From NCBI GenBank assembly GCA_937124585.1, contig CAKZKT010000031.1, positions 1 through 60,476 on the forward strand: 60,476 bases of DNA, written 5' to 3'. Source of the stretch: an uncultured Anaerolineae bacterium. Lineage in GTDB: Bacteria; Chloroflexota; Anaerolineae; CG2-30-64-16. The position numbers were made by a program, and so were the translations under genes. Under the pieces are notes generated by a model. That model had not been told where the DNA came from. It was given only the letters and a program-made list of their open reading frames with translations, and did no database searches. Below are positions 770 to 9,025 of the stretch, piece after piece. Position 1 is the stretch's first letter, and every line of letters begins with the position of its first letter.

Positions 770-805
770 AGGCGGGGCGATCAGACGGGATCGCCCCGCC
801 TTTCA
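770..805. terminator. Bidirectional intrinsic terminator between convergent genes
   Basis: A perfect 13-bp stem (770-782 with 789-801) encloses a 6-base loop and is followed by TTT on the plus strand. It lies between the stop at 763 and the elp3 stop codon (803-805), and could end transcripts from both sides. Confidence 0.75.
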
Positions 806-2563
806 CAATGCGGCGATCATATACAGGTCGCCGCGCGCAAAGCCCAGCCGCTCGTAATAACGTCGCGTGCCGATGGCCGCGATGACCGCCAGCCGGTCGT
901 AGCCGGCCGCCGCGGCGCGCGCCTTCGCCTCCGCGATCAGCCGCCGGCCCAGGCCCAGGTGCTGCGCCTCCCCGGCGCTCGTCGCGCCGATCTCCAGCGC
1001 CGGCCCGTAGACGTGAACCTCGCGGATCATCGCCGCGCCGGCGATTTCCGGAATCGTCTCCCAAATATCGGCCACGGCCCGAGAACCCACCGCATCACCG
1101 TCACGCGCAGGCAGCGAGAGCCGCAGAAAACCCGCCAGCCGCCCCGCGGCGGTCTCATAGCTCAGAAAATGCTCCACGCTGCCGGCCGTCTCGTAGGCAT
1201 GCACAACCAGACGCAGGTCATCCTCACCGACGACACTGCCGCGCACCTCTCGACAGCGAATGCAGCGACACACCTGGCCGCGTGCCGCCATCCGTTCGTG
1301 CACGAGCTGGCGCAGGTTCGATGTCTTGACGCCCGCCACGATGTCGTCCGCCGGAATGTCCCGAAACACACGGTTGACGCGGCAATAGGGCGGAATGGTC
1401 GCCTTGCAGTCGGCTACCAGGTCAATCAGCTCGTCCTCCGTGTAGGGCCGATAGGCGCCTGCCTGCCACAGCCGATACAGCTCCGTCCCCGCAATGATCG
1501 AGCAGGGATAGATCTTCAACTCGTCGGGACGCAGCGCAGGGTCAGACCAGAGCCGGCCGAAGTCCAGCCGATCCGACTCCGGAGTAGCGCCATAGAGGTT
1601 GGGCATCCAGTGCAAGTGCAACTTGAAGCCGGCCGCGCGCAGCAGGCCAACCGCCCGGCGCACGGTCGCCACGTCGTGGCCGCGCTGGTTTAGCGCCAGG
1701 ATCGCGTCATCGAGGCTCTGCACGCCGAGCTGCACCTTGGTGACCCCCAGCCGACGTAGGTGCACGACCTCGTCCGGCGTCACCCAGTCGGGCCGGGTCT
1801 CGATCACCAGGCCGACATTGCGATGCGTCGCGGTCTCGTTGCGCGCCTGGGCCACGGCGAGGCGAGCGGACGATGTGGTGATGGAATGGCCGGGGGTGGT
1901 CTCCGGAGTCAGGGAGCCGGGCAGGGCGGATGGCGCTGCTTCTTCGTTCATGGCGTCCAGACAGCGGGTGACGAACCATTCGCGATAGCGTCGTGAGTAC
2001 GCACTCCACGTGCCGCCGAGGATCAGCAGCTCGACTTTATCCGCCGGATGGCCCATCGCCTCGAACGTCTCCAGTCGGGTGCGCACCTGGAGGTAGGGGT
2101 CGAAACCGCACTGCGCGGCGCGACGCGCGCCCGGCTCATCCGGCAAATAGCTCTTGGGCATCCCCTCCGCGTCGGGGCAGAAGATACAACGACCTGGACA
2201 GCCCGCCGGCTCGGTCAGCACGGTGACGGGCGTGACGCCAGAAGAGGTGCGCACCGGCTTCATCTGGAGGCGGCGCAAGACGAAACGCTCGAATGGCAGG
2301 ACGCCGGCCGCAGTCAGCTGCTGATAGGCTGTCACCAGCTCGATTTTGGAGAAATAGCCGGTTGTGCCGGCCTTGTTGTCTCGGCCGTGTCGTGCTAAGA
2401 TGCGCAGCAGCGCATCGTGATCCCAATCGGGCGCCTCGCGCACTGCGTTGAAGATCGCCAGCAACGCCTCCTGATGTTGCCGCGCGTCGAAATCGCGGCC
2501 GCGGGGCCGCCACACACGACTACCGCTCTGCGGCGAATGCTCGGATCGGACCTCATCCATCAT
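803..2563 (-). CDS. elp3: Elp3-type tRNA uridine-34 carboxymethyl-modifying enzyme (radical SAM/acetyltransferase)
   Basis: The protein has 586 residues. The radical SAM cluster motif is C122-x3-C126-x2-C129 (GCPGRCIFC followed by PDAEGMPKSY, which is diagnostic of Elp3). A C-terminal GNAT-like acetyl-CoA domain (about 480-586) contains LGLGRRLI and ends YYERLGFARGDLYM. Elp3 uses acetyl-CoA and 5'-deoxyadenosyl radical chemistry to place a carboxymethyl group on C5 of wobble uridine in tRNA. Bacterial and archaeal forms act without the other Elongator subunits. The start is the first of two adjacent ATG codons; it overlaps the start codon of the divergent methyltransferase. The terminator lies immediately after the stop. 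The family call is firm and the tRNA targets here are unknown. Confidence 0.93.
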   Translation of the reverse strand: MMDEVRSEHSPQSGSRVWRPRGRDFDARQHQEALLAIFNAVREAPDWDHDALLRILARHGRDNKAGTTGYFSKIELVTAYQQLTAAGVLPFERFVLRRLQMKPVRTSSGVTPVTVLTEPAGCPGRCIFCPDAEGMPKSYLPDEPGARRAAQCGFDPYLQVRTRLETFEAMGHPADKVELLILGGTWSAYSRRYREWFVTRCLDAMNEEAAPSALPGSLTPETTPGHSITTSSARLAVAQARNETATHRNVGLVIETRPDWVTPDEVVHLRRLGVTKVQLGVQSLDDAILALNQRGHDVATVRRAVGLLRAAGFKLHLHWMPNLYGATPESDRLDFGRLWSDPALRPDELKIYPCSIIAGTELYRLWQAGAYRPYTEDELIDLVADCKATIPPYCRVNRVFRDIPADDIVAGVKTSNLRQLVHERMAARGQVCRCIRCREVRGSVVGEDDLRLVVHAYETAGSVEHFLSYETAAGRLAGFLRLSLPARDGDAVGSRAVADIWETIPEIAGAAMIREVHVYGPALEIGATSAGEAQHLGLGRRLIAEAKARAAAAGYDRLAVIAAIGTRRYYERLGFARGDLYMIAAL

Positions 2564-3377
2564 GAAACCAGAAACCTGCGCGGCGCTCCTAGAATTGAAT
2601 CGCCGCTTCTATGAACAATTTGCCGGGGAATTTGCCCGCACGCGGCGCAGCTGGCCACCCGGCTTCGAACATATTTTACCGTATCTCCTACCGGCTGCCA
2701 ACATCATTGACCTGGGCTGCGGGAACGGTCGGTTGTTGCGCTTCCTGGCGGCGCGCGGCTGGCGCGGCCGCTATCTCGGCGTAGACAGCAGCGCGGCGCT
2801 GCTGTCCATTGCCGCAGACGAGGCCCCGCGCGCGTCGGGACTGCAGGCCGAATTCCGCCAGCTCGAGCTCATATCGCCGGACCTGACGCAGTCGTTGCGC
2901 CTGGCCGATGCAGCAGGCGAAACCACGTGGGAGGCAGCCACCGCGCTCGCCGTGCTGCATCACATCCCCGGCCGGGCACAGCGGGCTGCTTTCCTGACCG
3001 CGTGCGCCGACCTGCTCCGGCCCGACGGTGTCCTGATCCTCTCCACCTGGCAGTTCCTGACCGCACCCCGACTGGCGACGCGCCGCCTGCCCTGGGAAGC
3101 GGCCGGCATCCCGCCGGAAGAGGTGGAGCCGGAAGACTACCTGCTGGCGTGGGGCGAAGGTGCGGCCGGCCAGCGCTATTGCGCTGCGATCAACGAGGCG
3201 GCGCTGCGGGAGTTGGCCGAAGGTGCCGGCCTGACCTGCGTTGAATGCTTTCGGGCCGATGGCCACGAGGGAAATCTCAACCTGTACGGCGTCTTTCGCC
3301 GATCTCTGAAAAAAGAACGGCGGATGCCATCCGCAGAGGACAGATGCCATCCGCCCCTATCGTCACCCATCCCGTAG
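2562..3377 (+). CDS. Class I SAM methyltransferase resembling Trm9/ALKBH8 tRNA methyltransferase
   Basis: The protein has 271 residues. SAM-binding motif I is DLGCGNGRLL (50-59), followed by the acidic motif GVDSS (about 73-77). Several positions recall Trm9: an N-terminal FYEQFAGEFARTRRSWP block, AVLHH before the last strands, a Trp in LSTWQF, and a late RYCAAINEAALRELAEGAG segment that fits the YHLY...EL...AG region of Trm9. Trm9 esterifies the carboxymethyl group left on wobble uridine by Elp3. The gene is divergent from elp3 and shares its start site. The last 25 or so residues arise from a small palindrome and may be dispensable. The methyltransferase fold is certain; the tRNA role is inference from motif and neighbour. 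Confidence 0.8.
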   Translation: MKPETCAALLELNRRFYEQFAGEFARTRRSWPPGFEHILPYLLPAANIIDLGCGNGRLLRFLAARGWRGRYLGVDSSAALLSIAADEAPRASGLQAEFRQLELISPDLTQSLRLADAAGETTWEAATALAVLHHIPGRAQRAAFLTACADLLRPDGVLILSTWQFLTAPRLATRRLPWEAAGIPPEEVEPEDYLLAWGEGAAGQRYCAAINEAALRELAEGAGLTCVECFRADGHEGNLNLYGVFRRSLKKERRMPSAEDRCHPPLSSPIP

Positions 3378-3420
3378 CCGGAGCGGACGGCGTCTGCCCC
3401 GGCACGTCCGGCGCTCTGTC

Positions 3421-4686
3421 CTACACCATCTCTCGTAGACAGGCCAGACAATAGTCCACTTCCTCCCGCGTATTATAGTGCGCCAGGCCGGCGCGCACGA
3501 CCCCGCCCGTGGCCTCCAGCCCCAGCCGCTCGGTGACGGCCAGCGCGTAGAAATTGCCCGACCACACGTAGACCCCGCGCTGTGCCAGATGCTCGGCGAC
3601 CTCCTGGGGGGAATGGCCGGCCAGGCGGAACGCAGCCGTGGGCGTGCGCCGATCAAACCGCGCGAAATCGCGGATGCCGTAGAAGCTCAGCCCGGGGATC
3701 GCCAATAGCCCGGCGACGAAATGCTCGAACAGCGGCCGCTCGTAGGCCTGGATGGCCGCCATGGCCTGCTTCAGCGCCAATCGGCGGCCCGTAAAACCGG
3801 GAAACCGGCCTGCGAAAGGCGCGCCGAACTCCTCGCCCAGCTCGGCCAGGTACTCTATTGCCGCCAGCACGCCGGCCTGCGCCTCGTGACACTGCGTGCC
3901 GGTCTCGAACTTGTCCGGCGGCAGGTCGCCGGCTGGCCGCACCTTGTATGCCCGCAGCTGTTCGAGCAGCGCATATCTGCCCCACAGCACACCGGAATGA
4001 GGCCCGAAAAACTTGTACGGAGAACAGACCAGAAAATCGCAATCGAGCGCCTGTACGTCAATCGGGCCGTGCGGCGCGTAGTGGACGGCATCCACCCACA
4101 GCCACGCGCCGACGTGATGCGCCAGCTCGGCGATCTCGGCAATGGGGTTGACCGTGCCGACCGCGTTCGAGGCATAGCCGACCGCCACCAGCCGGGTGCG
4201 CGAGCTGAGCTGGCCGGCCAGGTCGTCGAGCCGCAGGGTACAGTCGGCCGGATCGAAATCCACCTCTTTCACGACCACCCCGCGCTCTGTCAGGGCCAGC
4301 CAGGGCGCGCGATTGGCGTCGTGATCGAGCCGCGTGATCAGGATCTCATCGCCGGCGCGCAGCTCCCGGCCGATGGCCCGGCTCAGCGCGAAGGTCAAAG
4401 AGGTCATGTTCGGCCCAAATACGATCTCGTCGGCCGACGCCGCGTTCAGAAAATCGGCCATGGCTTCGTGCGCGGCCTTCAGAATCGCATCGCTCTCTCG
4501 GCTGGTGCGAAACGCGCCGCCATGATTGGCATTGGTGCGCGCCAGGTAGTGGCTCATGGCATCAATCACGCACTGCGGCACCTGGGTGCCGCCTGGCCCG
4601 TCGAAGAAGATCGCCGGCCGACCGGCATCTTCGAGCACCAGGGCCGGGAACTGGCTGCGCACTGGGGAAAGATCTAAGACAGACAT
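3421..4686 (-). CDS. Cysteine desulfurase-like class V aminotransferase (PLP enzyme)
   Basis: The protein has 421 residues with a fold-type I PLP enzyme layout. LSRAIGRELRAGDEILITRLDHDAN contains the ring-stacking His (about 122), WVDAVHYAPH contains the pyridine-nitrogen Asp (about 199), and CSPYKFFGPHSG contains the Schiff-base Lys (about 225). It resembles the cysteine-desulfurase-like group (TIGR01976) rather than IscS or SufS; I see no clear catalytic Cys loop of the usual type, so desulfurase activity is not assured. No suf or isc genes are adjacent. It is convergent with the methyltransferase. The start was chosen as the ATG giving MSVLDLSPVRSQFPAL. Confidence 0.85.
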   Translation of the reverse strand: MSVLDLSPVRSQFPALVLEDAGRPAIFFDGPGGTQVPQCVIDAMSHYLARTNANHGGAFRTSRESDAILKAAHEAMADFLNAASADEIVFGPNMTSLTFALSRAIGRELRAGDEILITRLDHDANRAPWLALTERGVVVKEVDFDPADCTLRLDDLAGQLSSRTRLVAVGYASNAVGTVNPIAEIAELAHHVGAWLWVDAVHYAPHGPIDVQALDCDFLVCSPYKFFGPHSGVLWGRYALLEQLRAYKVRPAGDLPPDKFETGTQCHEAQAGVLAAIEYLAELGEEFGAPFAGRFPGFTGRRLALKQAMAAIQAYERPLFEHFVAGLLAIPGLSFYGIRDFARFDRRTPTAAFRLAGHSPQEVAEHLAQRGVYVWSGNFYALAVTERLGLEATGGVVRAGLAHYNTREEVDYCLACLREMV

Positions 4687-7993: not shown

Positions 7994-9025
7994 ATGAACG
8001 AGAATCTCTCCCGCTATTCCAGGCAGATCATCTTCCCGCCCATCGGCGAGGCGGGGCAGCGCCGCCTGCTGGAGGCGCACGTGACGCTGATCGGCGTCGG
8101 CGCGACCGGTTCGATCCTGGCCGATCGTCTGGCGCGCGCCGGCATCGGCCACCTGCGATTGGTGGATCGCGATTTCGTCGAGCTCAACAACCTGCAGCGC
8201 CAGCTGATCTACGACGAAGACGATGTCGCTGCCATGCTCCCGAAGGCCATAGCCATGGCCCGCAAGCTGCGCCGCATCAACAGCACGATCGCCATCGAGG
8301 AGATCGTGGCCGACGTCAATCCCACCAATATCCTGGAGCTGATCGCCGACGCCGACGTCGTCGTGGAAGGCACCGACAACTTCGCCACGCGCTATCTGAT
8401 CAACGATGCCTGTGTGAAGCTCGGCAAGCCGTGGATTTACACCGGCGTGGTTGCCTCCTACGGCATGACCATGACGATCCGGCCCGGCATCACCCCTTGT
8501 CTGCGCTGCGTGATGGGCGAGCTGCCGGCGCCGGGCGCCGCGCCGACGTGCGACACCGCGGGCATCATCGGCCCGATCGTCAGCCTGATGGGCTCGATCA
8601 CGGTGGCCGAAGCGCTCAAGCTGCTCCTCGGCCGCGGCACGCTCAACGACGGCATGATCCACGTAGACCTGTGGGAAAACACCTTCGAGCAATTTACGCT
8701 CGGCGGCCCGCGGCCCGACTGCCCGACCTGCGGCCGGCGCGAATTCGCCTTCCTCAACGCGGAGGCCGGCACGCGGTTGACTGCCCTGTGTGGCCGAGAC
8801 GCCGTCCAGGTCAACGTGGCCGGCGCGCCGGCCATCAATCTGGCTGCATTGGGCGAGCGGCTGGCCGCGGCCCAGGTCGGCCAGGTGCAGGTCAACCCCT
8901 ATCTGCTGCGCGCCCGCATCGAGGGATTCGATTTCACCGTTTTCCCCGATGGCCGGGCGATCATCAAGGGCACGAACGACGAGGCAACCGCGGCCACTCT
9001 CTACGCGCGCTACGTGGGCGTGTAG
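7994..9025 (+). CDS. ThiF/MoeB/HesA-family E1-like adenylyltransferase
   Basis: The protein has 343 residues. The nucleotide-binding loop is GVGATGS (about 34-40), followed by LVDRDFVELNNLQRQ, the hallmark of E1-like enzymes that adenylate the C-terminus of a ubiquitin-like sulfur carrier. The crossover-loop Cys is in APTCDTAGIIGPIVS. Paired zinc cysteines are CLRC and CPTC. The C-terminal 80 residues form a small extra domain of beta-grasp-like length (TALCGRDAVQVNVAG to the end). No thiS or moaD gene is next to it, so the carrier is unknown. A TAAAAT box at 7982-7987 ends only six bases before the ATG, which would give a leaderless message if it is the -10. Confidence 0.85.
   Translation: MNENLSRYSRQIIFPPIGEAGQRRLLEAHVTLIGVGATGSILADRLARAGIGHLRLVDRDFVELNNLQRQLIYDEDDVAAMLPKAIAMARKLRRINSTIAIEEIVADVNPTNILELIADADVVVEGTDNFATRYLINDACVKLGKPWIYTGVVASYGMTMTIRPGITPCLRCVMGELPAPGAAPTCDTAGIIGPIVSLMGSITVAEALKLLLGRGTLNDGMIHVDLWENTFEQFTLGGPRPDCPTCGRREFAFLNAEAGTRLTALCGRDAVQVNVAGAPAINLAALGERLAAAQVGQVQVNPYLLRARIEGFDFTVFPDGRAIIKGTNDEATAATLYARYVGV

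Follow-up and report, generated by a model that had tools for sequence, protein, structure and literature searches.

The window analyzed here, a 60,476-nucleotide stretch of DNA from an uncultured Anaerolineae bacterium, carries a gene for Elp3 head to head with a gene for a Trm9-like class I methyltransferase (MT). We consider it highly probable that the two enzymes form a wobble-uridine pathway leading to mcm5U34 that replaces MnmE-MnmG. In the proposed pathway, Elp3 would use acetyl-CoA and radical SAM chemistry to carboxymethylate U34 at C5 (cm5U34), and the divergently encoded MT would then methylate the cm5U34 carboxylate in a SAM-dependent reaction to give mcm5U34. A separately encoded MnmA would add the 2-thiolation in the tRNAs for Lys, Glu, and Gln (mcm5s2U34). 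The pair would thus substitute for the MnmE-MnmG route, and would do so without a recognizable Trm112 in the window genome. Five observations at the sequence level underlie the proposal: intact catalytic residues, divergent linkage, co-occurrence, exclusion of MnmG, and Trm9 substrate-site residues in the MT. From these we infer the substrates, products, and target tRNAs of the pair.

The gene pair in the window

A preliminary description of this DNA placed Elp3 directly divergent from a class I MT, and this arrangement is borne out: Both reading frames lie where they were reported (Table 1), with their ATG codons inside one CATG. The same -2 overlap of the starts is seen in the close relatives L046, L047, and L048 and also at L052, L054, L114, L116, L117, and L118, and is found in two distant branches of the MT family. 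In the window, the overlap implies either that the leader and ribosome site of each gene lie inside the other gene or that the mRNAs are leaderless. The Elp3 start is supported, since in L046, L047, and L048 this CATG likewise supplies an ATG in frame, 5′ of the conserved WxPRGRDFD block.

Table 1. Features of the Elp3-MT locus in the window
Feature	Position	Strand	Basis
Elp3 (radical SAM + GNAT), 586 aa	803..2563	-	TIGR01211, 490.6 bits; PDB 5l7j, 5.7e-109; key residues intact
Elp3 radical-SAM cluster motif CPGRCIFC, residues 122-129	2177..2200	-	Sequence
Elp3 GNAT/acetyl-CoA domain, residues 501-576	836..1063	-	Pfam Acetyltransf_1
Trm9-like class I SAM methyltransferase (MT), 271 aa	2562..3377	+	Pfam MT families; family and Trm9 comparisons
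CATG common to both start codons, head to head	2561..2564	.	Sequence
MT FARTR, R28 = Trm9 R29	2631..2645	+	Alignment; R in 42/42 bacterial family members
MT SAM-binding motif I IIDLGCGNG, residues 48-56	2703..2729	+	Alignment
MT HH (133-134) = Trm9 H115-H116	2958..2963	+	Alignment, family conservation
MT R205-Y206 = Trm9 R241-Y242	3174..3179	+	Alignment, family conservation
MT N240 = Trm9 N271	3279..3281	+	Alignment

Convergent with the MT is a gene for a cysteine desulfurase-like protein (3421-4686, minus strand; TIGR01976, 491 bits), which may have a connection through sulfur to the thiolation of U34, and a ThiF/E1-like protein (7994-9025, plus strand; Pfam ThiF, 248 bits) is encoded a few genes from the pair. 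At two other loci, L073 (3217-3954) and L079 (3201-3953), a gene that by eye resembles PAPS reductase (CysH family) separates Elp3 from the MT and runs in the direction of Elp3. The gap between Elp3 and the MT is of similar size in other Anaerolineales.

Elp3

Database comparisons confirm the minus-strand gene as an intact bacterial Elp3. The protein, with its rSAM and GNAT domains, exceeds the 350-bit cut-off of the NCBIfam ELP3 model, and among PDB Elp3 chains its E-values reach down to that of the crystallized Dehalococcoides mccartyi enzyme (DmcElp3, 5l7j), with which it is 47% identical across 436 aligned positions. The cysteines of the radical-SAM motif CX3CX2C (122-129) are present, as is the CRCIRC motif (432-437). 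The equivalents of DmcElp3 K77, K193, E386, and Y441, residues for acetyl-CoA and tRNA (PMC6367351), are all conserved, as are the 4Fe-4S cysteines. Judging from its family, the window Elp3 would install cm5 on the wobble uridine.

One Elp3-carrying genome in our sample (G020, locus L142) encodes an Elp3 that is 100% identical to 5l7j over all 459 residues. A Trm9-branch MT (1429-2103) is divergent from this Elp3 (2147-3526), 43 bases apart. The Elp3 that serves as the bacterial structural model, that of Dehalococcoides, is thus accompanied by this neighbor as well.

Elp3 was historically named a histone acetyltransferase, and the window protein has the KAT domain. One could accordingly suppose that it does not act on tRNA here but, for example, acetylates proteins, with the MT modifying a protein. 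We regard this as highly improbable: All rSAM and KAT residues examined are intact, MnmG is absent from every sampled Chloroflexota genome with Elp3 (see below), and tRNA is the substrate on which DmcElp3 works (PMC6367351).

Conservation of the divergent pair and co-occurrence of its members

In a sample of 151 Chloroflexota genomes, we found clear orthologs of the window MT (E-value of 7e-38 or better; next match, 3e-8) in 14, all belonging to the window's class. The preliminary description had suggested looking for the same pairing in other Chloroflexota, and the pairing does recur: All 14 Elp3-containing genomes of the class have the MT, and in 12 the two genes adjoin. In G096 and G144, Elp3 is on a different contig from the MT.

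We then searched the 151 genomes with a second MT profile (A2), built from non-Chloroflexota members only. The top matches fall in 27 genomes, at 162 to 100 bits (E-values of 4e-47 to 1e-28), with the next match at 91 bits (2e-25), the threshold having been set from this score gap after the search. They coincide exactly with the 27 genomes in which Elp3 passes its cut-off: 14 from the window's class and 13 from other families, Dehalococcoides among them. By their coordinates, the two genes are divergent and adjacent in 25 of the 27 carriers, a count that is independent of the threshold.

Searching other bacteria in GTDB with only the MT alignment, we obtained 80 loci. Elp3 lies within ∼4 kb at 64 of these, and all 64 are divergent (counting two with overlapping starts). 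Among the 16 loci without Elp3 on their DNA, six have <750 bases of contig upstream, and one (L125) seems to be a methyltransferase of generic type. Beyond Chloroflexota, carriers are found in, among others, Patescibacteria (Buchananbacteria, Magasanikbacteria, Nealsonbacteria, and Peregrinibacteria), Dojkabacteria, and Acidobacteriota. Leptolinea tardivitalis YMTK-2 (L076) and Dehalococcoides mccartyi are carriers that have been cultured. Within the pairs, MT identity is ∼40% through the window's class and 25%-35% in other phyla, and since the pairing recurs at such identities, it is not due to chance. A restriction of the pair to the window's lineage is ruled out by its presence in other Chloroflexota families and in other phyla.

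The relationship is less symmetrical in a second sample, comprising 87 genomes of a Patescibacteria-type phylum. Elp3 was found in 36 of these and the MT in 27, and 26 of the 27 MT-containing genomes have Elp3. Ten of the 36 genomes with Elp3 lack a clear MT (G179, G185, G190, G193, G201, G209, G227, G241, G243, and G245); their cm5U may stay unmethylated or become another product. Dependence of the MT on Elp3 is thus stronger than the reverse, as would be expected of a second-step enzyme. In this sample, a single MT-family match above 100 bits (G238:C10:79253-80053) occurs in a genome in which no Elp3 was detected.

Relationship of the methyltransferase to Trm9

The preliminary description credited the MT with Trm9-like N-terminal, Trp, and late "AG" motifs. 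The N-terminal FARTR, the Trp within LSTWQF, and late conserved residues (in GQRY and NLNLY) are indeed present, but the "AG" wording was imprecise, the late conserved motifs being R205-Y206 and N240. The alignment used a sequence taken to be that of yeast Trm9; it matches the deposited Yarrowia lipolytica Trm9 (YlTrm9, 5cm2_Z) at 2e-72, and the residues described in the literature occur in it at the expected numbers. Loss of R29, H115, R241, Y243, or N271 in yeast Trm9 impairs tRNA affinity and activity (PMC5372719). The window MT has R28, H133, R205, C207, and N240 at these positions, so that four of the five are kept. The equivalents of R29, H115, R241, and W144 are invariant in all 42 bacterial family members, and are not so in 26 other class I MTs. 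The position of Y243 is V, C, or A in the window's branch, and is Y in Dehalococcoidia and in about half of the Patescibacterial members; many Anaerolineae relatives have G in place of N271.

Profile searches of the PDB also point to Trm9. YlTrm9 is the top match of the Patescibacterial A2 profile (1.9e-26) and ranks third with the Anaerolineae profile, A1 (2e-10). A tree with 14 outgroups unites the MT family and Trm9 in one clade (support 97/95) and groups Trm9 with the partners from Patescibacteria and Dehalococcoidia (99/99); with 26 outgroups, Trm9 nests with Patescibacterial members (97/93). In the MT tree, true Trm9 falls within the branch of the Patescibacterial members. The window's own Anaerolineae/Acidobacteriota branch is separate from the strict Trm9 branch in two trees (100/99 and 99/98). 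When the 26 harder outgroups are used, which include the best-scoring unlinked MTs, the join between the Anaerolineae and Trm9 branches lacks firm support, and a single clade of MT family plus Trm9 is not rejected (p-AU = 0.588).

The AlphaFold model of the window MT (pLDDT 93) has a class I Rossmann fold with the SAM motif. In a Foldseek search with this model, 5cm2_Z has the highest target-normalized TM-score listed (0.76), although it ranks only 10th; the top matches are generic, and many class I MTs rank alike. The structural comparison with Trm9 proposed earlier does not discriminate it from other class I enzymes, and the fold is weak evidence, since it is common to all class I MTs.

We use the label Trm9-like, and no stronger one, because neither the tree join with the Trm9 branch nor Foldseek decides the matter. 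The original assignment holds to that extent: The MT has Trm9 functional residues and joins no small-molecule grouping that excludes Trm9, but it sits in a branch of its own outside strict Trm9.

Two other roles for the MT have to be weighed. One is that of a small-molecule or unrelated class I enzyme that merely lies beside Elp3, as might be read from its Pfam matches, which are generic (Methyltransf_23, 12, 25, and 11), from the best PDB matches of the single window sequence (Hen1, UbiG, and antibiotic methyltransferases, most of the list being generic class I), and from the generic Foldseek matches. Set against these are the perfect match between MT and Elp3 occurrence across 151 genomes, which holds even in G096 and G144, where adjacency has been lost; the divergent linkage across phyla; and the Trm9 substrate residues. 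On the co-occurrence with Elp3, we rejected both the chance-neighbor and the small-molecule readings, and would give such a role a barely appreciable probability.

The other role is a closer competitor, if still an unlikely one: The MT may act after Elp3 on a different product or atom, such as hydroxylated cm5U, the 2′-O of U34, or another base of the anticodon loop. Drift at two of the five Trm9 positions (Y243 to C/V/A, and N271 to G in many members) would fit this, as would the separation of the window's branch from strict Trm9. However, R29, H115, and R241, the residues that place cm5U34 in yeast Trm9, are invariant, and members of the strict Trm9 branch occupy the same divergent position in Dehalococcoidia and Patescibacteria. 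Methylation of cm5U34 itself is thus the reading we prefer.

Exclusion of MnmG and presence of MnmA

MnmG belongs to the usual bacterial U34 pathway. Among the Chloroflexota, it is over the cut-off in none of the 27 genomes with Elp3 vs. 66 of the 124 without (P = 2.8e-8, Fisher's test by genome); the Fisher tests given here count related genomes as independent. By family, the numbers are 0 of 9 and 25 of 49 (P = 0.004). The Patescibacteria-type sample gives MnmG in 0 of 36 genomes with Elp3 and 5 of 51 others (P = 0.07). Among 22 pair-carrying genomes, mostly from non-Chloroflexota phyla, MnmG is missing from 20. The two exceptions, carrying L117 (Ignavibacteriales) and L124 (Latescibacterota), are likely due to mis-binning: The MT on the 17-kb L117 contig groups with those of L116 and L118. 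The L124 contig measures 3.1 kb and carries an Elp3 that is 52% identical to the window Elp3. The window genome has no MnmG over the cut-off, only a partial 62-bit match in a 513-aa ORF that is probably TrmFO.

MnmA is present in 26 of the 27 Elp3-containing Chloroflexota. Exclusion of MnmG together with near-universal MnmA suggests that U34 is the target and that mcm5s2U is a likely end product in some tRNAs. The exclusion is one-way, since ∼58 of the 151 Chloroflexota genomes have neither Elp3 nor MnmG; nearly all of these have MnmA.

Trm112

Eukaryotic Trm9 requires Trm112. Using PF03966, we found no credible Trm112 in the window genome, where the only match is a 958-aa ORF at 23.8 bits, and none in the carriers G055, G120, G007, G020, and G030. 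Matches are patchy, and several are short ORFs at marginal scores. We therefore rejected Trm112 as the partner of the pair, and the bacterial MT, as far as these genomes indicate, probably acts without it. Alternatively, there may be a diverged Trm112 partner that is too distant for recognition by PF03966.

Comparison with known systems

Taken across the genomes sampled, it seems probable that several phyla (Chloroflexota including Dehalococcoides, many Patescibacteria, and some Acidobacteriota) rely on the mcm5(s2)U34 type of eukaryotes and archaea, synthesized by a Trm112-free divergent pair, rather than on (c)mnm5(s2)U34 from MnmEG, and that eukaryotic Trm9 lies within the bacterial diversity. 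The preliminary description saw in the window a minimal prokaryotic version of the two-step pathway. A bacterial pair is supported, but it is not the first in prokaryotes: Genes for Elp3 and Trm9 homologs sit together in the archaeon Sulfolobus (PMC2584109), and a review credits archaeal Trm9-Trm112 with the formation of mcm5U (PMC7694415). The archaeal system has the same lone Elp3 and Trm9 homolog and differs in domain of life and in its dependence on Trm112.

Textbook accounts derive the U34 chemistry of bacteria from MnmEG. In a 2020 review, cm5U and mcm5U are listed for archaea and eukaryotes, not bacteria (PMC7694415), and a 2017 review describes the Trm112-partner methyltransferases as having no detected bacterial homologs (PMC5372719). 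In the open-access papers searched, we found no report of a bacterial Trm9, nor any statement on the downstream fate of the cm5U made by bacterial Elp3. The new part thus appears to be the bacterial version of the Elp3-Trm9 pathway. If it is correct, the Trm9-like enzyme supplies the missing step after bacterial Elp3, including the crystallized DmcElp3; a two-protein system becomes available for study of the Elongator pathway; and an mcm5U-type nucleoside new to bacteria is predicted.

Two bacterial systems are related. The MnmE-MnmG(-MnmC) route to (c)mnm5U34 acts on the same position, C5 of U34, in tRNAs of the same class and shares thiolation by MnmA, but its chemistry and enzymes differ. 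CmoM, the bacterial cmo5U34 carboxyl methyltransferase, is also a class I MT that forms a methyl ester on a wobble-uridine carboxylate, with another substrate, and it is not known to be linked to Elp3; in the PDB profile search it is a weak match at the foot of the list (8joz, E-value of 5e-6).

The closest parallel is the eukaryotic route to mcm5(s2)U34 by Elongator and Trm9-Trm112/ALKBH8. No other Elongator subunits are seen in the neighborhood of the window pair. The window MT differs from eukaryotic Trm9 in lacking Y243 and W272, and its genome in lacking a recognizable Trm112. The Elp3 catalytic core is nevertheless the same, and the MT shares with Trm9 the FSxTR, HH, W, PW, and RY motifs along with four of the five functional residues. 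The same two reactions are predicted for the window genes, which, in contrast to the eukaryotic pathway, are bacterial and divergent neighbors.
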